A stretch of 22,951 nucleotides of DNA from a virus: IMG/VR virus record IMGVR_UViG_3300000116_000251, positions 1 through 22,951 of that record; one strand, written 5' to 3'. Made by a program: the position numbers and the translations under genes. Of the stretch, positions 1 through 16,646 are shown piece after piece (position 1 is the first letter of the stretch; each line of letters opens with the position of its first letter). Below the pieces are notes generated by a model. That model worked only from the letters and a program-made list of their open reading frames with translations. It made no database searches and had not been told where the DNA came from.

Positions 1-2640
1 CCTGGTGCCTTCGGTACTCGCAGACTGGCTGCACAAGCCACAGGTGCTGGCCTAGGCGATGTTGCCGGTAACTACGGCGTGGAAGCAGTACAGGCACTCA
101 GGGGAGAGCAGTATGAAACACCGGGAGAGATTTGGTCTCGCGCTGGTTCTCAGGGAGCTATCGTTGCCGGTCTAACCTTTGGTCTTGGTCTACCCCTTAA
201 CGCTATAGGTTCCGCAACGAACAAAGTTGCAAACATCTCTAGGGCTAGACTGGCAGAAGGCAACTCCAACAAAGGTGTGGCTGTAACTGCTGAAGACGCT
301 GTACAGGCCCGTGAGAGCCTTACCGCAATGTTGAAAGACGCGGGTTACTCAGACGCAGACATTGAAGACGTTGTACCAGTTCTGACCATTAAGCACATGC
401 TTGGAGATCAGGGTACATTTGCTGGCAAGTTTGCAACAGTGTTGGAAGGAATTGGTTCTAAGCAGCTGGGTGACAAGATTCCGGCACAGGCTGTGGAATT
501 TCTAAGCAAGATTGACAACCTTGTTCGTGCTGGTGAAGCGGCAGGTCGCAGTCAAATAGAGATTGCAGACTTGGTTAAGGAGAGCTTGACAAAGACTGAG
601 ATTGCACAGGCCAAGAAGGCACTAGACGGTATTGTTGATCTACAGGATCAGCTTGGTCCTAAGATGAGCGCAGCCAAAGACGTTACTCAACTTACCGATA
701 TGATTAGCGATGCTTTGGAAAGGCAGTGGAAATATGGGCAAGACCAGTTTAAAAGTACAAAGCTTTACGGAACTCTTGAAAACCCAAACCCAAATCTTGA
801 TCTAGGTAATCTATCTGGTTATGTTATCAAGAACACTGACGTTGCAGAAATGTTGAACAACACTGCAAAAGAGTTGGGTAGTAACAACGCTAACGAGGCT
901 ATAAACTTCTTTGCAACTGTTGATCAAAATTTCTTGGCTAAGCTTGACGGAGCCATCGAGGTAAAAGACGGAGTTGCTGTGGCTAAGGCTGAAGGGTCTG
1001 CCCTAAAAGACATTCCTGATAAAGCCCTTGGTCCTGTATGGAGGGCAGAAGCCAAAGCTGTTCTAGGCGACGGTGCAGAAAGTTTGGCAGCAATCAACGC
1101 CAATGACCTGTACCAACTAAACCGTAAACTTTCTGCAAAGAGTGGTTCAAGAACCGCAAGTTCACAGGAAACGCGTAACGGGACTTTAGCTTCTTCTGAG
1201 GTTTTCAACACCTTGGACAAATACAGTGCAGGTTTTAGTAAGGAGCTAAAAAGAGTTAACGCTGAGTATAAAAAGTTTGTAACTCCTCACAAACAGTCCA
1301 GGAGAAACATTACTGAAACTAGTGCTCAAACACCTAAACAGTATGTGGATGATCTTGTCGCCGGTAGAAAGCCACGTCTATTCACTGATATTATTGAACA
1401 GTTGGATAAGGCTTTGGAAGGGACTGAAGCAATTGGTGGACGAGGTGTAGACTTTGCAACCACCGACCAAATTTTAGGTGAGGTATCCTCTCAGTATATG
1501 CGTTTTATTAAAGATCAGTTTGATCTAAACGTGGGTGCTGCTACTGATTTGCCAACTCTTAGGCAAAATGCCAAAAATGCTCTGAAGTCTATCCAAACTC
1601 TGGAAAAGGCAGACAGTACTCCTAAGTTTAAAAAGACCATCGACCGGTTGTTCGACACTGAGGGTATGCGTGACTACAAGAAAGCTCTGCGTGAACTGTC
1701 AGAAGGTAAACCAGAAGGTGCAGCAAAGTTGGGACACGTTCTTAGCTATAAGGACTCTGCTGACTTTGTAGACAATATTAGCAACACTGCTTCAAACCTG
1801 TCTGGTTCTGACCTAGCTTCAGCAGCCGCTCAATTCAGAAACCTTAAATCTGTCGATCCACGGGCTGGAGAGTTTTACAACGAACTGTTCTATTCAGAAG
1901 TGTATTCAAAAGTTTTGAAGTTTGGTGGGTTACAGTCTGCACAGAGAAACGCCGCTGTAAAAAGTTGGGCCGATGATATTGTGTCTGCCAACAATGCTTC
2001 TCCTGAAGCTCTTAAAGAACTCCTAGGGCCTACGTACTACAAACCTATGATGGATATGGCTAACACAATACAGGGGGCCTTGAACATCGACCCTTCAGCC
2101 GGTGCTATTAGTGCAGCATCAGCACCTTTTGCAGCCGTCAGGGGAGTTATTAACGGTAATGTACTAGCTGCTTTAAAGCCACTTACATTTATGTACACCA
2201 TGCGTGGTTTTGGACCGGGGCAACCTGCTTGGAAACGAGTGCAAGCAGCCATTGCTAAGGGTAATTCCCAAGAAGAAATAAACAAAATGATGGCTCCATA
2301 TGTTGGGTCTTCTGTTAAAAAAGCTCGTAAAGCCGCTGGGGCAACTCTAAGCGGTCGTACGGGTCTCTTGGCAGCTTCGGTGTCAGCGTATATGAACGAA
2401 GCTGAAACAACCTTGCCACCAGAGGGTACTCCTATTGTTCCCAAGGTTGTTCGGCAGTCTGACGAAGAGGTTCAGCAACAGCAGCAACAGGCAGTTGTGT
2501 CTGAATATCAGGACGCAACGCTTGGTAAAGCTATGGCAGACGTTATTAGAGCCATCCAAGGGACAGGTCAACAGGCTATGAACATACCCGACTCACAAGC
2601 AGCGTTATCAGAAGGCTCTAGAATTGCAGGAACACGTTAA
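1..2640 (+). CDS. large virion structural protein, probably internal/ejection protein (5' partial)
   Basis: The frame is open from the first base to a TAA at 2638-2640, giving 879 visible residues. No start is needed inside the window, so the gene is cut by the left edge; the GTG at 79 is just an internal Val codon. The visible N-terminal part is rich in Gly, Ala and small hydrophobics (a loop-helix pattern about residues 1-65). Long helical, charged segments follow, and near the C-terminus there is a short poly-Gln run before a disordered tail. No enzymatic motif is visible. Size, composition and position just ahead of the lysozyme and holin-like genes fit the large internal virion or DNA-ejection proteins of podoviruses, but this is inferred from context. 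It overlaps the next gene by one base (TAATG), suggesting translational coupling. A tail-tube-associated or tape-like protein is the main alternative. Confidence 0.7.
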   Translation, partial: PGAFGTRRLAAQATGAGLGDVAGNYGVEAVQALRGEQYETPGEIWSRAGSQGAIVAGLTFGLGLPLNAIGSATNKVANISRARLAEGNSNKGVAVTAEDAVQARESLTAMLKDAGYSDADIEDVVPVLTIKHMLGDQGTFAGKFATVLEGIGSKQLGDKIPAQAVEFLSKIDNLVRAGEAAGRSQIEIADLVKESLTKTEIAQAKKALDGIVDLQDQLGPKMSAAKDVTQLTDMISDALERQWKYGQDQFKSTKLYGTLENPNPNLDLGNLSGYVIKNTDVAEMLNNTAKELGSNNANEAINFFATVDQNFLAKLDGAIEVKDGVAVAKAEGSALKDIPDKALGPVWRAEAKAVLGDGAESLAAINANDLYQLNRKLSAKSGSRTASSQETRNGTLASSEVFNTLDKYSAGFSKELKRVNAEYKKFVTPHKQSRRNITETSAQTPKQYVDDLVAGRKPRLFTDIIEQLDKALEGTEAIGGRGVDFATTDQILGEVSSQYMRFIKDQFDLNVGAATDLPTLRQNAKNALKSIQTLEKADSTPKFKKTIDRLFDTEGMRDYKKALRELSEGKPEGAAKLGHVLSYKDSADFVDNISNTASNLSGSDLASAAAQFRNLKSVDPRAGEFYNELFYSEVYSKVLKFGGLQSAQRNAAVKSWADDIVSANNASPEALKELLGPTYYKPMMDMANTIQGALNIDPSAGAISAASAPFAAVRGVINGNVLAALKPLTFMYTMRGFGPGQPAWKRVQAAIAKGNSQEEINKMMAPYVGSSVKKARKAAGATLSGRTGLLAASVSAYMNEAETTLPPEGTPIVPKVVRQSDEEVQQQQQQAVVSEYQDATLGKAMADVIRAIQGTGQQAMNIPDSQAALSEGSRIAGTR

Positions 2641-3188
2641 TGGCAGACTTTTTCTCAGACTTTAAAAACGCAATCCAAAGCAACCCGCAAGCTAGTCAAG
2701 AGTTTTCACGATTGAAGAACAAAGCTGCACTCTACGGTGGCGGTGCTGCGGCAATGGGAGCAGGTTCAGTGCTTCCAGAACCTGTTATCAACACTGGTCG
2801 CACTGCTGTCGAGGGTGTTAACCAGATGACAGATGACTTTGGTCGTTACACCGTTGATCCAATGTTGCAGCAAATGTTGCCACCAGGTATGGATGTCAAT
2901 GTGAACACAGGTGTGTCACCAATGGCAGCAGTGCGGGGCTTGTTGTCTAATGAGATGCCACCAATGAACCCGTCTGCTAATGTCTCTTATCAAGCACCGG
3001 GGGGAGGTCTCTATGGTTCAGGTACTGTCACGCCTCAAGGAATGTCTAACCCTACAGTGGGGTATAGTACTCCGGTACTGGGTGGGGCTGGTTCTTTTGA
3101 CGCTTCTGTTTCTTCCTCTGGCCCTGTTTCAAAGTTTCCTTCCTCCAGCGATCTATTCGCAGCAGCTAGACTCAATCTCAAGTTCTAA
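2640..3188 (+). CDS. virion-associated protein of unknown function
   Basis: This is a 182-residue protein whose ATG overlaps the stop of the preceding gene in TAATG. The N-terminal 25 residues look helical and charged. An Ala/Gly-rich hydrophobic patch follows (about residues 32-45), then a Pro/Met/Gly/Ser-rich, low-complexity C-terminal half with little predicted order. I do not recognise the family. Its place between a large virion protein and the lysozyme-like gene suggests a small structural or ejection protein. The last 70 codons are also open in another frame, but that frame lacks a ribosome binding site here and is only the upstream extension of the next gene. Confidence 0.65.
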   Translation: MADFFSDFKNAIQSNPQASQEFSRLKNKAALYGGGAAAMGAGSVLPEPVINTGRTAVEGVNQMTDDFGRYTVDPMLQQMLPPGMDVNVNTGVSPMAAVRGLLSNEMPPMNPSANVSYQAPGGGLYGSGTVTPQGMSNPTVGYSTPVLGGAGSFDASVSSSGPVSKFPSSSDLFAAARLNLKF

Positions 3189-3198
3189 GGATAGACCA

Positions 3199-5483: not shown

Positions 5484-7166
5484 TTAAACACCACAGCTTC
5501 CTCCTTGACCAGAGATTTCACAAATGTCGTGAGTCTCTACACTTTCTTCAAACTCTGTGCCTAGCTTGTCTACAGCCTCAGAATAAGGAACCGATGATAG
5601 AGGTTGCCCTCCTCTGCATCCGTCTGGATAGACTGTAAACCCGCGCAGCCTGTGAGCATAAGAGGCAAGAGTATTAGTAAACTTTTCAACAGTGTCCTCA
5701 TTGTTCAACTTTGAACCCCATTGTGGTAGGTTGATGGTAGAGGATATAGACATGTCCACATAGTCTTGAACGTCAGCTTGGAAAGACATACGTCTCTCGT
5801 AGTCTTCTGCTAGGTCAATGGCTGACTCAATCTTGTTGGGGTCAGTACCATAGATGTCCATAATCTCCTGAGCAGCAGAGTCAACAACGTACTGATAGTG
5901 CCAACGATTCTGTCCTTTCAAATAGCGGCGCTTATAAGAAACAGCAAAAATAGGCTCAACACCAGTGCTAGTACCAGCGAGAATACCAATACTTCCAGTT
6001 GGGGCAATTGCTCTATTAGCCACAGGACGGGATATACCAAGACTATCAGCGTAGTCAGCACTAACACTGTCACTATGGCCTTTATAAACACCCAACCATC
6101 TGTGAAGCTCCTCCGTGACCTCATATTTATATCCTCTCTTAATCAACCACTCGTGCATACCCATGAGTCCAAGGCCAAGTCTACGGTTCTTCTCTCGTGT
6201 CTCATACACCTTATCATAAGGCAGCTTTGCCTTCAGTGTACCACAAATAAGAAACTTAGTACCAAGCTCCACAATATCACGGAACTCCTGAAGTGTTTCA
6301 ACTCTGCCAAGGTTGATACTACCAAGGTTACAAACGTCAGAGTCGTCAGCACTGGTCACTTCTGTACACGCATTGCGAAGCGTCTCATCTTCCTTGTCAA
6401 AGAAGTTAAAGCTAAAGCCAGGTTCTGCTGTCTGTAGAGCCTGTCGTACGTTCTGCCTAAACACATCTCCAACGTCACCAGTGTCCCAGTAGTTCAATAA
6501 CCACTCTGTATCATAATTGACAGAGACATTTGTCATATCCAAGGGGGCATTAAAGTTAAAGTCCTGCTCTTTAATCTGTCCTACAGAAAAGCCGGTGTCA
6601 CCCACTGGCATGTCGTACCAGTTCTTGGCAGATAGGAACTGCTCAATATCTCTATGCTGCCAATTGAGACTTGCATAGATTGCAGATCGACGACTACCAC
6701 CCTGCATTACTCTACGACCAATCTCGTTAATCATCTGCATCTTGGGAATAGGACCAGAGGCAATGCCCCCAGTCTTGCTTAGAGTGGCACCAGAGGGGCG
6801 GTAGACACTGTAGTCAATACCGATACCACCGCCCGTCATAAGACACGACTCAGACTTCCACGACAGGTTAGCCCAGTCTTCTCGGCTATCCTCCTCTGCC
6901 TTCAACAAGTAACAATTGTTAAAGAACTTATTGGGCCGACCCGCATAATATAGGTAGCGTCCACCAGGGATGAACTTCAACTCTGTTACCATTTGAGTCA
7001 GAGTTTCGATCTCATCATCCGAAAAGTGTTCTCCACAAACGTCCTGTACTAAGACGCGTGAAAGATCAGCCCAATTATTACATCCTTCATGAGCATACTT
7101 GTGCTTGAAGATATCTTCACTGAACTTAGAGCGGAACATGGGGTTTTCGTTACTTTTAAAACTCAT
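5484..7166 (-). CDS. nrdJ: ribonucleotide reductase, class II (B12-dependent) type
   Basis: The 560-residue protein reduces ribonucleotides to deoxyribonucleotides for phage DNA synthesis. Visible RNR features in order: FIPGGR (65-70), Cys85 in NNCYLL (first redox Cys), GGGIGIDYS (112-120), and the NxCxE active-site signature at 265-269 (Asn265, thiyl Cys267, Glu269). Then come Cys279 in VCNLGSINL (redox partner of Cys85), the phosphate-binding APTGSIG (388-394), and C-terminal Cys549 and Cys558, which probably shuttle electrons. There is no small-subunit (NrdB) or NrdD-activase gene nearby, and the sequence resembles the compact NrdJ proteins of marine phages; this makes class II likely, though class is not proven by sequence alone. 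The start overlaps the preceding 55-codon gene by 11 bases. Such phages would depend on host cobalamin. Confidence 0.9.
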   Translation of the reverse strand: MSFKSNENPMFRSKFSEDIFKHKYAHEGCNNWADLSRVLVQDVCGEHFSDDEIETLTQMVTELKFIPGGRYLYYAGRPNKFFNNCYLLKAEEDSREDWANLSWKSESCLMTGGGIGIDYSVYRPSGATLSKTGGIASGPIPKMQMINEIGRRVMQGGSRRSAIYASLNWQHRDIEQFLSAKNWYDMPVGDTGFSVGQIKEQDFNFNAPLDMTNVSVNYDTEWLLNYWDTGDVGDVFRQNVRQALQTAEPGFSFNFFDKEDETLRNACTEVTSADDSDVCNLGSINLGRVETLQEFRDIVELGTKFLICGTLKAKLPYDKVYETREKNRRLGLGLMGMHEWLIKRGYKYEVTEELHRWLGVYKGHSDSVSADYADSLGISRPVANRAIAPTGSIGILAGTSTGVEPIFAVSYKRRYLKGQNRWHYQYVVDSAAQEIMDIYGTDPNKIESAIDLAEDYERRMSFQADVQDYVDMSISSTINLPQWGSKLNNEDTVEKFTNTLASYAHRLRGFTVYPDGCRGGQPLSSVPYSEAVDKLGTEFEESVETHDICEISGQGGSCGV

Positions 7167-7323: not shown

Positions 7324-8152
7324 GCTCGATCTCTTGCTTTGATTTGCCCTCGTCCCCCACTAGGAACACAGGGCGTCCACCCCTAAACTTTAAATCAAGA
7401 CCCTTGTCTACCCAGCATACCTGCTTGTGTGGGCAGTAGGAGCAGTTGATACCCAGCTTCTTGCGACCTGAGGGCTTGTCGTCTACTTCTGTGAAGGGTC
7501 GATCAGGCGGTGTGTCCTCCTCCAGCATAGCCCTAACGTGCTTGATCCTGGCTGATGTATCCTCTAGGTTTTCATGAGTGTACGTAGCAAGCTCTCCACC
7601 GCTCTTATCCATAGCAAGGAACGTACCGCTCTTCTTATTCATAGCGTTGGCATAGCCACTGATCTGGGAGATGTATCCGAAGGCATCGTCGTCAGGCAGT
7701 GTGCCGTTCTTGAACTTCTTCATGGCAAAACTAGAGGCTGATTTAACATCGACAAGATGTCCGTCAATTACAGCGTCAATATGACCTATGATACCGTCCA
7801 CTTCAATACGCTTCTGCTGGTCCTCTACAGTGTGTCCAGCCTCCTTGGCTAGGTATAGAACTAGGGCCTCTACCAGATCACCAAAGATAAACTTCAGCCG
7901 TGTCTCAGATGACAACGGTTCTGGTTCGTGTTCTCCCTTAATGTCCAACCAGAGAGCACGATCACAGGGCTTACCAAGGTTCGACATACGCAGTGCTGGT
8001 TTACGTTCCGCAGTAGAGAACCAAAGTTGTTTCCGCACTGCTTCCATCACGGTATAGCCTAGCTCAAACAGGGCAGCTTTATCAGGCTCTTTCTTACCGT
8101 TGTCCAGCAATTCGTAGATGTCTGGAACTAGGGTGTCTATGGTTTTAGTCAT
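7313..8152 (-). CDS. PD-(D/E)XK nuclease, Cas4/RecB/AddB-like exonuclease
   Basis: A 279-residue protein with a PD-(D/E)XK core: Glu95 on the upstream helix, GHIDAVID (Asp126), then the catalytic VDVK (Asp135, Lys137), and QISGY (Gln163-Tyr167) as the RecB-motif helix. Cys63 near the N-terminus together with Cys237, Cys240 and Cys246 makes the split four-Cys arrangement of Cas4 and AddB, which holds a 4Fe-4S cluster. It probably processes phage or host DNA ends during replication and recombination, taking the place of T7 gp6 exonuclease. It overlaps the endonuclease gene upstream by 8 bases (ATGACTAA). There are no CRISPR arrays or other cas genes in the window, so a role in spacer acquisition is unsupported. 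Confidence 0.85.
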   Translation of the reverse strand: MTKTIDTLVPDIYELLDNGKKEPDKAALFELGYTVMEAVRKQLWFSTAERKPALRMSNLGKPCDRALWLDIKGEHEPEPLSSETRLKFIFGDLVEALVLYLAKEAGHTVEDQQKRIEVDGIIGHIDAVIDGHLVDVKSASSFAMKKFKNGTLPDDDAFGYISQISGYANAMNKKSGTFLAMDKSGGELATYTHENLEDTSARIKHVRAMLEEDTPPDRPFTEVDDKPSGRKKLGINCSYCPHKQVCWVDKGLDLKFRGGRPVFLVGDEGKSKQEIEHGF

Positions 8153-8741
8153 CTATATACTCCACTGATGTAATGTCTTTGTGGGTTTTATGAACGCCTG
8201 TTAAAACCTTTGAAAGTGCTTTTCGATCATAACCGTTTTCTTCGCACCACTGTTTAACAGTTCTGTCGTACACTTCTTCAACCCTACCGCCTTTAAATGT
8301 AATTTTAAAAGCCCCTTTGTAATTGCCGTGTTTAGTCCCGGACATCTTACGGTAACTCTCAACCGGCCTGAAGAAACGCCTACCACCTATGTTCTGATTG
8401 TAACAGTCTTCTCGCTCAAGACACTCAAGCTCCATCTGCAACTTCTCTTCGGTGTAGTAAAGGTCTCTCTTGTTCTTACAGAGGTGGAGTATCTCAAAAG
8501 TAAAGGCGTCTTTGCCATGCTCTTCCATTGCTTCTGTCAGAGACGCACTGCTGCCAGTGTATTTTTTCCAAGTAGATGGTCTGTTCTTTTTACGACTGCC
8601 CTTCTTAAACTTCCAAAGGTGCTTGCAGCCTATGTAAAACTTTCCAGTCTCCCGGTGAGTGATGATGTAGACAAATCCTAGGTAATCTGCAACATTGAAC
8701 TCACCGGAAGTTTGGACATCCCAATGCCCGTAGTCAGACAC
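8145..8741 (-). CDS. GIY-YIG endonuclease with C-terminal DNA-binding region (homing endonuclease-like)
   Basis: The 198-residue protein starts at a GTG directly after the SSB stop (TAAGTG), with an AAGGCGAAGAG ribosome binding site in the end of the SSB gene. The GIY-YIG nuclease domain spans about residues 21-120: GFVY (22-25), FYIG (35-38), Lys/Arg-rich region, YTGSS (61-65), the metal-binding Glu around 98-99 and Asn115 in NQNIGG. Residues 141-195 match the C-terminal modules of phage homing endonucleases: a beta stretch, then a helix-turn-helix around WCEENGYDRKALSKVL, then GVHKTHK. It could be a free-standing homing endonuclease that entered the replication operon, or a nuclease now working in phage DNA metabolism. 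No intron or intein is seen in adjacent genes. Confidence 0.85.
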   Translation of the reverse strand: MSDYGHWDVQTSGEFNVADYLGFVYIITHRETGKFYIGCKHLWKFKKGSRKKNRPSTWKKYTGSSASLTEAMEEHGKDAFTFEILHLCKNKRDLYYTEEKLQMELECLEREDCYNQNIGGRRFFRPVESYRKMSGTKHGNYKGAFKITFKGGRVEEVYDRTVKQWCEENGYDRKALSKVLTGVHKTHKDITSVEYIDD

Positions 8742-11588: not shown

Positions 11589-13220
11589 TTAGAACTCCTG
11601 TTCGATGGTTGTCATGCGTCCTGTCTTCTTATCGTAGAACAGTCTACCAGCTAGTCCTACGTCGCCTGTGTAGCGGCACTTGAGTACCCGTAGCGTCGTT
11701 GTGTTGCTGACCACTGGGTCGTCGCTTTGCGTGTCACGCTCCAGAGCTACGACCGTGTCACTGATCTGGGCAATGCCATGTGATCCGCGAAGGTGTCCTA
11801 GGTTTATCTCCACGCCTTCTTCATGTGATCTATCAGAACCAAGGCGGCGCAGGTGAGTGACAAGGTGCAGAGTGCATCCGGTCTCTTCGGTCAACTGGCG
11901 CAGCAGTGTCATGGTGCGGTCAATGGCCTTCCGTTCGTCCATGATCTCAAGTCCTGAAACCAGGATGCTAAGATGGTCAATGAAGATCACCTTGCAGTCC
12001 AGTCCCTGTACCATGAAACGTACGCGAGACAGCAAGTCGTCGGTGTTCATGCTACCGAAATGGTCGTACAAGTAAACACGCCCTGTTCCTAAAGTATTCG
12101 CAAAGTGTTCTTTGACCTTTTCTTTAGGATACTTGTTGAATACTTCGTTAAGATGTAGTGGCAGGTTGGCTTCAACAGCTAAGATACCGCGTCTGGTGCG
12201 GTCCACGCTCTCTTCAAGGGCGATGATGCCAATGTTCAGGTCGGTGTTCTTGATGTAGTAGTGCTGCAACTCCCGCAGGATGCTTGACTTACCTACGCCT
12301 GTACCAGCAGCCCATGTGACGATCTCTCTGCCACGGGTGCCAAGTGTCTTCTCCTGTAGGCCGGGGAAGGGGAAAGCCAGGCTCTTGATGTTCTGCTCGT
12401 CCCACAGGCGGTCAAAGTTGTCAGCACCGTTGTGGATACCAGAGGGGGTATATGAATACGTGTCTTTCAGATGCGCCAAGAATTCATTGCCTAGACCACG
12501 CTTGGTATACTCACAGGCGTCCTTGTGCTCAAGGTTGACAACGTAGGCTTTGCCGGGAGACAACAACTTGGCACACTTCTCTGCTGCACTGAGGCCCGGT
12601 GTGTCACTGTCGAAGCAGATGAACACTCGTTCGTAGCGTTCGAGCAATTCTAGGTTCTTCTTGAAGTCACGCTCCGCACTGGCTGCACCGCTCTTGATAC
12701 TCAGGACTGGCACCAGAGTGCTCTTGGGACTGTCGCTGACCTTGGTGGAGCCTAGCGGGATACGGTTAGCCATCTGGAACGCTGCCAGTGCGTCAGCCTC
12801 ACCCTCAGTGATGATGATCGTCTTGGAGCGTTGCGGAGCAGCCTTGCCCAAAGTGTGTGAACCAAACAGTTCGCACTTGGTAAAGTCGCCTTCGGTCTTG
12901 TGAGCCTTGCCGGGCATACGAACCTTGCTGGCTTTCTGCACGCCATCTACAAAGTACGGAAAGTAAACCATAGACCCATTGTCGGAGACCTTTACCTCAT
13001 AGAACTCAGAGACAGCACCGCCGATCTTACGGTCTTGCCAGAGTGTGTCCTGTTCTGGCTTCTTATAGTCCTCAATGTTGGACACGTTTATGTTCTCCAT
13101 TCGGTGTTGATTACAGCTAAAGCAATATGTGTGACCGTCGTCGTATTCAGCCAGTGCATCGCTAGACCCACAATCTTCGCACGGCTGGTGCGTCTTGCTG
13201 ATCTGTGAAGTGGTTTCCAT
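11589..13220 (-). CDS. primase-helicase, T7 gp4-like
   Basis: This 543-residue bifunctional protein has an N-terminal zinc-binding domain (Cys14, Cys17, Cys33, Cys36), a TOPRIM primase core (ITEGEAD with Glu139; CFDSD with Asp204 and Asp206), and a DnaB-type RecA-fold helicase. Walker A is GTGVGKSS (306-313, Lys311), Walker B is VIFIDH (Asp415), and a helicase Arg/Gly motif lies near LGHLRGSHG. The C-terminus is EQEF with terminal Phe, like the acidic tail of T7 gp4 that contacts the polymerase. It primes lagging-strand synthesis and unwinds the fork. Both the zinc finger and TOPRIM are intact, so it should make its own primers. It overlaps the preceding gene in TAATG. Confidence 0.94.
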   Translation of the reverse strand: METTSQISKTHQPCEDCGSSDALAEYDDGHTYCFSCNQHRMENINVSNIEDYKKPEQDTLWQDRKIGGAVSEFYEVKVSDNGSMVYFPYFVDGVQKASKVRMPGKAHKTEGDFTKCELFGSHTLGKAAPQRSKTIIITEGEADALAAFQMANRIPLGSTKVSDSPKSTLVPVLSIKSGAASAERDFKKNLELLERYERVFICFDSDTPGLSAAEKCAKLLSPGKAYVVNLEHKDACEYTKRGLGNEFLAHLKDTYSYTPSGIHNGADNFDRLWDEQNIKSLAFPFPGLQEKTLGTRGREIVTWAAGTGVGKSSILRELQHYYIKNTDLNIGIIALEESVDRTRRGILAVEANLPLHLNEVFNKYPKEKVKEHFANTLGTGRVYLYDHFGSMNTDDLLSRVRFMVQGLDCKVIFIDHLSILVSGLEIMDERKAIDRTMTLLRQLTEETGCTLHLVTHLRRLGSDRSHEEGVEINLGHLRGSHGIAQISDTVVALERDTQSDDPVVSNTTTLRVLKCRYTGDVGLAGRLFYDKKTGRMTTIEQEF

Positions 13221-13507
13221 TATCGTGCGTACTCCTTATCCATCTCCGCTGCCAAAGCCGCATATCCACAAATATCCACGTAGCAATCGTCGGTCCCTGA
13301 GTGCATGAGCCTGGCCACCTTGAGTAAAATCATCATATGGGCAACGTCCATGGGTGTCAACTGAACCTGCACCCCTGTCTTAGCTGACAAGTAACGAGAC
13401 CACAGGCTGGCAATACGGTTGTGGTTCTCATAGGCAGACCCATAATCTGTAGCACGCTCACCGTTAACAAGCTCCTTGGCGGTATCTAGGCATTCGTCCC
13501 TCTGCAT
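13220..13507 (-). CDS. DUF6378-like phage protein
   Basis: A 95-residue all-helical protein. The pattern GERATDYGSAYENHNRIASLW in two parts (NGERATDYG; NHNRIASLW), then PMDVAHMMILLKVARL and a final YVDICGYAALAAE segment, matches the DUF6378 family found in many phages. The layout of conserved Glu, Asp and Asn in helices is reminiscent of all-alpha NTP pyrophosphatase-like (MazG-type) proteins, but the metal-binding motif is not clear, so I do not assign an enzyme. Its stop overlaps the helicase start, pointing to a replication-linked role. Confidence 0.75.
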   Translation of the reverse strand: MQRDECLDTAKELVNGERATDYGSAYENHNRIASLWSRYLSAKTGVQVQLTPMDVAHMMILLKVARLMHSGTDDCYVDICGYAALAAEMDKEYAR

Positions 13508-15159: not shown

Positions 15160-15786
15160 CTAGTGTTTCGGATAGCTAATTAATGGCACGTCGTGATCCC
15201 AACATGCGCGACATGGTCCGCACGAATTGCCGCGTGTGCGCGCTTTGCACTCCATGCCCTTTGGGTCATTGCCCTTTGTGAACACTTGTGAACCGTGCGC
15301 CGCACCTTTGGGAATGGGGCCGTCAAGCTTGCTAGCAGATACGCGGATGATAAGATTGTCTGGTAATGCGCCATATTCCGCGACAATCGCGCGTTCTTGT
15401 GTTGGTAGCCAATGGCGAATGTTTGGCGTCATGCGGCAAACTTGAACAATGGCTTCTAACATTTCGACCGATTGTAGATCGCCACTATCAAACCAGCGAT
15501 GATAACCGTCAACGTTATAGCGCAAAATTTGGAAAGACATTGCTTGCGCCCATTGTTCCGGGTCACTGGTTTCCCATTTGGCAAGATTAGCCTTCCAACC
15601 TTGATCGACACTAGGGCGAAGCTTTTGAAGCTTGCGTGCGTAACATGAACGGCAAGGCGTTCCGTCAATCTTGGCCAGCTTTGATCCAGTCTTACAAGCG
15701 AATGCGTCGATTGCAAAAGTGGTCCCGGGCATCTTGCTGTTTCCGGTTGATACGTTGCCCAACTGTTTTGCGTCTTTTACTAACAT
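15160..15786 (-). CDS. GP88-like Cys-rich phage protein, probable metal or Fe-S protein
   Basis: A 208-residue protein. It begins LVKDAKQLGNVSTGNSKMPG, then has Cys31, Cys45 and Cys48 in PCRSCYA. Alternating beta-alpha segments follow with conserved-looking blocks YHRWFDSGDLQS (95-106), HWLPTQE (125-131) and IIRVSASKLDG (146-156). It ends in a second Cys cluster, Cys180, Cys189, Cys192 and Cys195. The blocks resemble GP88-type phage proteins (also listed as DUF7227), which I know only as uncharacterised. The CxxCY pair and barrel-like order recall radical-SAM-type enzymes, but the canonical CxxxCxxC is absent. It follows a strong hairpin and has the leader AGGGAAAATC before its ATG. Its codon choice (many GCG, CGC, TTG) looks different from the operon to its left. 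Confidence 0.7.
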   Translation of the reverse strand: MLVKDAKQLGNVSTGNSKMPGTTFAIDAFACKTGSKLAKIDGTPCRSCYARKLQKLRPSVDQGWKANLAKWETSDPEQWAQAMSFQILRYNVDGYHRWFDSGDLQSVEMLEAIVQVCRMTPNIRHWLPTQERAIVAEYGALPDNLIIRVSASKLDGPIPKGAAHGSQVFTKGNDPKGMECKARTRGNSCGPCRACWDHDVPLISYPKH

Positions 15787-15803: not shown

Positions 15804-15858
15804 TAACTTGCCAGCAATGGGCGCAACTATGCCAGCCGCGCCCATCCCTTGCAAGTTA
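15804..15858 (-). promoter_or_regulatory. nested hairpin in the leader of the GP88-like gene
   Basis: The outer arms 15804-15811 and 15851-15858 pair perfectly over 8 bases (TAACTTGC with GCAAGTTA). The inner arms 15817-15824 and 15838-15845 pair perfectly over 8 bases (ATGGGCGC with GCGCCCAT). A symmetric 5-by-5 internal loop separates them and a 13-base loop closes the top. The stop codon of the 56-residue gene lies in the outer arm. There is no T-run on either side in the leftward direction, so it is not a standard terminator; an RNA processing or regulatory structure is more likely. Confidence 0.6.
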
Positions 15859-16026
15859 GTCTTTCTGGTCCAAGCTTCTAATCCAATCGGCAAGCTTTGC
15901 CAAACGGTCATGATCCAAACGCGCAATGGCTTGTAACTGGACATCGCCGCTTTCCTCTAGGTCTTTGCGTATTTCATCGATTGTCTTATTTTCCATTTTA
16001 AAATCTTCCTCGTTCCATTTTTCCAT
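15856..16026 (-). CDS. small charged helical protein
   Basis: A 56-residue protein from the ATG at 16026, chosen because AAGGAG stands 8 bases before it; the frame is open further to 16071 without such a site. It is rich in Glu, Asp, Lys and Arg and is probably helical throughout, with a pattern KTIDEIRKDLEE and a leucine-spaced C-terminal half (RLAKLADWIRSL). I do not recognise it. It is the first gene leftward from the long non-coding region and probably shares a transcript with the GP88-like gene. Confidence 0.55.
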   Translation of the reverse strand: MEKWNEEDFKMENKTIDEIRKDLEESGDVQLQAIARLDHDRLAKLADWIRSLDQKD

Positions 16027-16448
16027 TGTCTCTACTCCTTGTGTGTTGCTTGTACTTAGTAGACGAACCATAACCCATATTGTTCCGCGCCGTCACAATA
16101 AAAAGTACCATCTTAAAACAAATCACATTGTCGCCACAATTGATTGCGTGTTCGTGGTTTGTTCCCATGCCCTGGAGGTACCGCCAGTGCGCGCTGGGTG
16201 CTTTCCATATGGTAGCACCTAGCAAACGAGCCAGAGGCTACCAGTGACGCTTATATGGCGTATATGACACCTATGCTTGCCAGGTATACCAGTCATGCTA
16301 CGAATGCATAGCGTGATATATCAGTACCATACGGTAGCGTATAGGTCAGCATTGTTGTCCTATTCGCACCCTCTCGCTCTCTCTAGAATATTTCTAATCT
16401 GTCCAACATTGAACACAATTGTATAACACCACGGCCAGTGTACAACTA

Positions 16449-16466
16449 TGTGACAATATTGTCACA
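16449..16466. promoter_or_regulatory. 18-base perfect palindrome, likely protein-binding site
   Basis: TGTGACAATATTGTCACA reads the same on both strands over all 18 bases. Its core ACAATATTGT is the core of the two palindromes at the leftward promoter, and the unit at 16573-16590 differs from it at only three positions. It looks like the ideal form of the site of which the array units are weaker variants. Confidence 0.6.
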
Positions 16467-16470
16467 GTAG

Positions 16471-16488
16471 TGTTACATTATTACAACC
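16471..16488 (-). repeat. degenerate repeat unit in inverted orientation
   Basis: Read on the minus strand this gives GGTTGTAATAATGTAACA, which agrees with most positions of the first array unit (GTGCAATAATGTCACA). It lies between the perfect palindrome and the array, in the opposite orientation. Confidence 0.4.
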
Positions 16489-16513
16489 GATCGGATGTTC
16501 ACGCTTTGTTCAC

Positions 16514-16646
16514 CTGGTGCAATAATGTCACACTGTTGCAACAATGTTGTCACTGTTGCCCAGGTGTCACACTGGTGCAATATTGTCACACATTGGAATG
16601 ATTCTAGTCTGTTGCAGGATTGTCACACTGTTGCAAAAATGTCGCA
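16514..16646 (+). repeat. iteron-like array of 19-base direct repeats
   Basis: Units start at 16514, 16533, 16553, 16572, 16609 and 16628, with an 18-base degenerate stretch at 16591-16608 where a unit would be expected. Consensus is about CTGKTGCAANAATGTCACA. The spacing is 19 bases (once 20, once 18 in the degenerate slot). Each unit is itself an imperfect inverted repeat (TGTTGCA...TGTCACA), so it could bind a dimer. Units are immediately tandem with no spacers, so it is not CRISPR. Confidence 0.75.

Follow-up and report, generated by a model that had tools for sequence, protein, structure and literature searches.

Sequence and fold comparisons suggest that the phage early-operon protein GP88 is a reduced radical-SAM-type enzyme related to DUF5131

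Radical-SAM enzymes work through a site-differentiated cluster and a GGE loop. Two of them serve as reference points here. Spore photoproduct lyase (SPL) abstracts a hydrogen in order to repair a thymine dimer of DNA (PMC3742179). The enzyme 7-carboxy-7-deazaguanine synthase (QueE) holds its cluster with a CX14CX2C motif in a beta6/alpha3 core (PMC4389238), and the motif was present in the QueE sequences that we retrieved. The phage proteins of Pfam family PF17338 (“Gene product 88”, GP88) form a named family without explained function, and DUF5131 (PF07505, phage Gp37/Gp68-like) is likewise unnamed in Pfam. In a literature search that covered only a minority of subscription journals, we found no paper treating GP88 or DUF5131 as radical SAM and none naming DUF5131, PF07505, PF17338 or DUF7227. 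The comparisons below indicate that GP88 is probably a reduced radical-SAM-type enzyme of the same stock as DUF5131 and the SPL/SplB branch; what would be new is a radical-SAM-like protein with its own cysteine plan.

The window, that is, the whole stretch of DNA analyzed, is the virus record IMGVR_UViG_3300000116_000251 (22,951 bases). Its minus strand encodes a DNA polymerase A, ThyX, a primase-helicase and a ribonucleotide reductase, and its plus strand encodes the terminase and portal. Among the matches listed, the terminase shares up to 56% identity with Vibrio phage terminases, while the nearest relatives of the polymerase are pelagiphage, Pseudomonas phage and roseophage enzymes (40% identity at most). 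The ribonucleotide reductase large-subunit barrel gene (PF02867; 5484-7166, minus strand) lies at the far end of the early block, and a homing-endonuclease-like gene (8145-8741, minus strand), with PHROGs matches to homing endonuclease and GIY-YIG, sits between replication genes. A 95-aa DUF6378 (PF19905) protein is encoded at 13220-13507 (minus strand); its PHROGs label, phosphofructokinase, looks wrong for such a size.

The ORF under study is a real gene (Table 1); a plus-strand reading of the same interval, full of stops, was rejected. Its product had been described from the sequence as GP88-like, and the PF17338 profile bore this out with 81.4 bits against a curated cut-off of 24.4. GP88 was the sole Pfam family matched at E values up to 10, no NCBIfam family was matched, and in PHROGs the protein fell into phrog_1392 (unknown function, E 2.5e-13). 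When the GP88 of a Streptomyces phage was used as the query, 381 of 50,697 phage records matched, and 270 of these are named Mycobacterium phages; the 40 matches listed carried no function label.

Table 1 Features of the GP88 gene and its surroundings in the window, with the basis for each.
Feature	Position	Strand	Basis
GP88 (PF17338) protein, 208 aa	15160..15786	-	ORF and translation; ATG start, then stop; PF17338 E 1.2e-22 over residues 18-197
C-terminal His208 and stop codon	15160..15165	-	His in 63/63; stop directly behind in 61/62 relatives and in the window ORF
C180-X8-C189-X2-C192-X2-C195, proposed second metal site (auxiliary Fe-S or zinc)	15202..15249	-	Cys in 63/63 and 14/14; metal putative
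Residues 95-106, strand 95-98 and DSGDLQS loop, proposed SAM-binding, GGE-like	15469..15504	-	Conservation and predicted strand; role putative
C31-X13-C45-X2-C48, then Y-A, proposed SAM-cleaving [4Fe-4S] site	15643..15696	-	Cys in 63/63; after predicted strand 22-24
24-bp hairpin just upstream of the GP88 start	15804..15858	-	Fold -37.6 kcal/mol, z -6.8; 0/200 shuffles as stable
71-aa ORF, probable preceding gene in the early operon	15856..16071	-	ORF list; weak PHROGs matches only, best 0.041
Five imperfect 34-nt repeats with TGTCACACTGTTGCAA-like cores	16448..16642		Repeat search; divergent intergenic region

In the early block, which runs leftward, GP88 comes second among the ORFs; it adjoins the divergent intergenic region and faces the terminase genes. 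Across 76 GP88 loci, the recurring terminase large-subunit ORFs upstream are encoded opposite to GP88, 24 of 25 in cluster 1 and 15 of 15 in cluster 5. The same holds for 19 of 19 terminase small-subunit ORFs, and 21 of 21 downstream primase-helicase ORFs share the strand of GP88; these neighbor clusters were named from their window members, one Pfam match and inspection by eye. GP88 is gene 1 of Roseobacter phage CRP-4; it comes sixth, counted from the left end, in Acinetobacter phage Bestia and third, counted from the right end and pointing inward, in mycobacteriophage 20ES. In Streptomyces phage Daubenski some 5 kb separate it from an end, and in Caulobacter phage Seuss and pelagiphage HTVC027P it lies inside the genome. 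In the window, as in several unrelated phages, GP88 belongs to the leading genes of the early operon, and it is presumably expressed early.

Relatives were taken from viral contigs and bacterial genomes, and 63 nonredundant sequences, the window protein and relatives 38-88% identical to it, were aligned (set A2). The original prediction had pointed to seven cysteines in two groups (31, 45, 48 and 180, 189, 192, 195), all of which are cysteine in 63 of 63 sequences; it had overlooked an eighth cysteine of the window protein, C117, which is not conserved (C in 30, A in 30 and V in 3 sequences). The C31-X13-C45 spacing is constant in all 63. Besides the seven cysteines, R97, W98, G102, D103, W126, P128, E131, R148, S150 and H208 are invariant, and D100 is kept in 62. 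The blocks SGDLQS, LPTQE and RVSASKLDG, singled out in the same prediction, are all found in the window protein, and D103, P128, E131, R148 and S150 fall within or beside them.

A wider GP88 set (n = 14), which includes the proteins of mycobacteriophage 20ES, Streptomyces phage Daubenski, Acinetobacter phage Bestia and Caulobacter phage Seuss, keeps the seven cysteines in 14 of 14 members, spanning alpha-, gamma- and actinobacterial phages, together with R, GD, P, W, T, N and S. Since both cysteine groups are kept in such divergent members, they belong to the core of the family and are not there by chance. The actinophage members (20ES and Daubenski) share the seven cysteines and the R, GD, W, T, N, S pattern with the window protein, but their first group reads C-X6-C-X3-C instead of C-X13-C-X2-C. 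The C-terminal histidine is specific to the branch of the window protein and is absent from the mycobacteriophage and Streptomyces members of the wider set.

The AlphaFold2 model of GP88, built with the A2 alignment (pLDDT 96.4, pTM 0.92), contains strands at 22-24, 95-98, 124-129, 145-150, 165-169 and 202-206, with helices between most of them. Where a beta-alpha barrel had been expected, a six-strand beta-alpha fold is predicted with high confidence; direct fold comparison with VIA gave only Z scores below 8. Three clustered cysteines after strand 1, a radical-SAM feature, are present (C31, C45 and C48, in 63 of 63 sequences, after strand 22-24). Places 1-5 of the VIA comparison are taken by QueE and viperin-like radical-SAM enzymes (Z 6.0-6.8), with QueE first (Z 6.8, rmsd 4.0, 143 residues), a second QueE at Z 6.2 and the viperin-like enzymes at Z 6.0. 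Radical-SAM enzymes fill 14 of the best 20 rows, the remainder being chitinases, dehydroquinate dehydratase, succinyl-CoA synthetase and a dextranase. With every Z below 8, the scores of the predicted model are by themselves no proof of a radical-SAM fold. Foldseek found nothing in the PDB at E <0.001; among viral models, other GP88s were followed by matches to a DUF7227 protein (probability 1.00) and a Gp37/Gp68-like protein (probability 0.98, TM 0.50). Sequence searches of solved structures with the window protein and with A2 gave chance matches only.

The link to DUF5131 was also seen at the sequence level. In Pfam scans, 6 of the 63 GP88s matched DUF5131 (best 1.3e-5), the window protein not being one of them, and 17 matched DUF7227 (best 5.2e-4). 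Conversely, 17 of the 59 viral and prophage DUF5131 proteins of set A4 matched GP88 (best 1.1e-6), and one matched Radical_SAM, at 0.19. A bacterial DUF5131 protein, L236, matched PF17338 at 1.2e-7 with 32.2 bits, above the GP88 cut-off of 24.4. An HMM built from A4 scored at least 10 bits with 32 of the 63 GP88s, against 0/63 reversed and 0/630 shuffled sequences, and against 8/630 when the shuffles kept the CxxCYx block. In the other direction, the A2 HMM reached at least 10 bits with 2 of 59 DUF5131s (best 14.7) and with 2 of 560 CxxCYx-keeping shuffles (best 15.3), which is hardly above the shuffles, to one of which the top score belongs. A further HMM (A7) found 6 of 59 against 3 of 560 such shuffles. 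Comparison by hhalign gave P values of 2.3e-4, 1e-4 and 1.5e-4 (HH probability only 45-57%), and the HMM alignments paired the CxxCYA motifs, the GD and SD loops, and TP-x4-WLPT of GP88 with tp-ltfllLTKrp of DUF5131.

Judged by these alignments, the likeness is a real but remote homology, and GP88 is related to DUF5131 without being a member of it. The two are collinear in CxxCYA and in the (G/S)D after strand 2, then in TPxxxxWLPT (GP88) against fQvLTKR (DUF5131) and RVSAS against GVSVE. GP88 has the longer first cysteine spacer and is shorter overall (208 aa, compared to about 240-400 aa); the C-terminal half of DUF5131, with GGESG and FKQWG, is absent from it, and four C-terminal cysteines are found instead. 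In DUF5131, just the three N-terminal cysteines are invariant, a fourth, C220, being kept in at least 90% of sequences. A GP88-DUF5131 gene pair was considered and rejected, as both occurred in 1 of 117 GP88 loci and 0 of 80 DUF5131 loci within the stored flanks. The lone case among the 117 is Microvirga lupini (L111), where the DUF5131 gene (2229-3194, minus strand) and the GP88 gene (5947-6639, plus strand) are less than 3 kb apart.

The predicted structure of DUF5131 (pLDDT 93.0) is clearly a radical-SAM fold, closest to SPL. SPL aligned to the model with Z 13.4 (rmsd 3.4, 205 residues), rows 1-31 of the VIA comparison are all radical-SAM enzymes, and the first match of another kind is isopropylmalate synthase at 8.7; Foldseek also placed SPL first (probability 1.00, E 1.3e-3). 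At the sequence level, DUF5131 matched the NCBIfam model rSAM_mob_pairA (radical SAM mobile pair protein A) at 9.3e-21, although far under its strict cut-off of 355 bits. One protein, L137, matched Radical_SAM (PF04055, 3e-10), SPL (2.9e-6) and DUF5131 (7.2e-5) together, and hhalign of A4 against the SplB-like set gave 2.5e-5 (HH probability 75%), with NPxxGC..GC..CYA aligned on both sides. A sequence search of solved structures with A4 gave no useful match. The DUF5131 proteins L236, L210 and L111 had strong PADLOC matches to the candidate-defence models PDC-M41B and PDC-M30B (up to 6.1e-122). Membership of GP88 in a defence system was rejected, PADLOC giving no match.

The original prediction had also ventured a metal or Fe-S enzyme, to be compared in fold with radical-SAM enzymes. 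A radical-SAM type is partly supported, by DUF5131 and by the best fold rows; GP88 itself has no direct radical-SAM profile match and direct fold scores below Z 8. The window protein did not match the profiles PF04055 (Radical_SAM), PF20903 (SPL) or TIGR04508 (QueE, NCBIfam), and the 12 NCBIfam families matched in a scan of the 63 GP88s are unrelated chance ones, with no radical-SAM family among them. By hhalign, GP88 was not significantly similar to the SplB-like set (P 0.1 and 0.21), and no sequence link to QueE was found (P 0.28). SPL and the SplB-like proteins (PF20903, NF033668) are tied to GP88 via DUF5131, through its fold match to SPL and the bridging protein L137; the SplB-like set has a CX3CX2C motif and longer proteins, compared to CX13CX2C in GP88. 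QueE, of the Cx14CxxC type, resembles GP88 in its long first spacer, its size (about 210 aa) and its fold, and in these alone; it has no C-terminal four-cysteine site. Since QueE uses CX14CX2C (PMC4389238), the long first spacer is no bar to a SAM-cleaving cluster in GP88. No queuosine-pathway genes were recognized by eye near GP88 among its loci. We do not file GP88 as a member of the radical SAM superfamily; it is related to it and probably works alike.

If so, C31, C45 and C48 would coordinate a [4Fe-4S] cluster, and S-adenosylmethionine would bind to the fourth iron of this cluster, held in place by the GD loop (G102-D103, in the place of GGE) and by R148 and S150 on the strand 145-150. 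Reductive cleavage of SAM would then yield a 5'-deoxyadenosyl radical that abstracts hydrogen from the substrate. C180, C189, C192 and C195, which stand where DUF5131 has the rest of the barrel, may bind either a structural zinc or an auxiliary Fe-S cluster. Our guess is that the substrate is most likely a nucleic acid base, in phage or host DNA or in host tRNA or rRNA, because the gene lies at the beginning of the early block and because the closest solved fold to DUF5131 acts on DNA thymine. As SPL acts on a DNA thymine dimer (PMC3742179), nucleic acid is the first substrate to consider.

The alternative that survives best is that GP88 is a zinc protein, in which both cysteine groups bind structural zinc on a small alpha/beta scaffold for nucleic acid or a host protein, and no radical chemistry takes place. 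The C-terminal C-X8-C-X2-C-X2-C could indeed be a zinc knuckle, and 7 of the 63 GP88s matched zf-CXXC weakly (best 0.0051). However, the three N-terminal cysteines alone leave one zinc ligand to find, and the conserved residues placed on one strand after another (GD, W-P-T, N and S) resemble an active site. Moreover, DUF5131, to which GP88 is matched over three shared blocks, combines only three invariant N-terminal cysteines with a radical-SAM fold, and we consider the zinc protein unlikely.

We find it very unlikely that GP88 is a degenerate, catalytically dead relative of radical-SAM enzymes that serves as an early binding protein, such as a host-takeover factor, with cysteines of structural use only. 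Its early gene position and its small size, without the C-terminal half of DUF5131, would suit such a protein, but seven cysteines and likely SAM-loop residues kept invariant across very divergent phages would be unusual in a dead enzyme. That GP88 is an unrelated TIM-barrel-like metalloenzyme that came to resemble DUF5131 by convergence around CxxCYA is hardly credible: chitinases and lyases do occur among its fold matches and the hhalign probabilities are modest, but the matches run through successive blocks in order, CxxCYx-keeping shuffles scored 8/630 against 32/63, and L236 exceeded the curated cut-off in one direction.

Were GP88 the radical-SAM-type enzyme that we think probable, a widespread unknown would become testable chemistry, DUF5131 would be suggested to be of the same kind, and phages would use oxygen-sensitive radical chemistry from their earliest genes. 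A broader and somewhat unlikely scenario is that GP88 and DUF5131 are two branches of a phage-borne radical-SAM lineage from SPL stock. GP88 would be the minimal form (about 200 aa, 3 + 4 Cys), which tailed phages infecting many hosts would produce as soon as infection begins. It would alter nucleic acid chemically, either to mark or protect the DNA of the phage or to damage DNA or RNA of the host.

The sequence had also been read as showing unusual codon choice and a structured leader. The first did not hold, as the mean log RSCU of GP88 relative to six replication genes (-0.028) lies inside the range of 36 same-length segments of the polymerase, primase-helicase and ribonucleotide reductase (-0.051 to 0.096), and its GC3 is 0.49 compared to 0.44-0.62 in these genes. 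The leader is real: the hairpin just upstream (Table 1) falls in the second-lowest energy window of the minus strand. An Rfam element was rejected, with 0 matches at gathering score in the window. Long hairpins also stand just before GP88 at no fewer than eleven other loci, similar in size (47-62 nt, 20-27 bp) and place but not in sequence. Whether they are enriched depends on the criteria applied. A permissive definition (at least 16 bp) picked out 17 of 70 GP88 leaders and 133 of 747 other leaders, which is hardly an enrichment. Under a stricter, exploratory rule chosen after that first count (at least 17 bp, -20 kcal/mol or lower, recurring genes only as control), 11 of 69 GP88 leaders qualified, compared to 8 of 368 controls (Fisher p 1.9e-5). 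The hairpin may serve in processing the RNA or in controlling its translation. Between the early and structural blocks, the repeat region (Table 1) also contains palindromes such as TGTGACAATATTGTCACA, and a possible function of the repeats would be that of an operator array or a replication origin.
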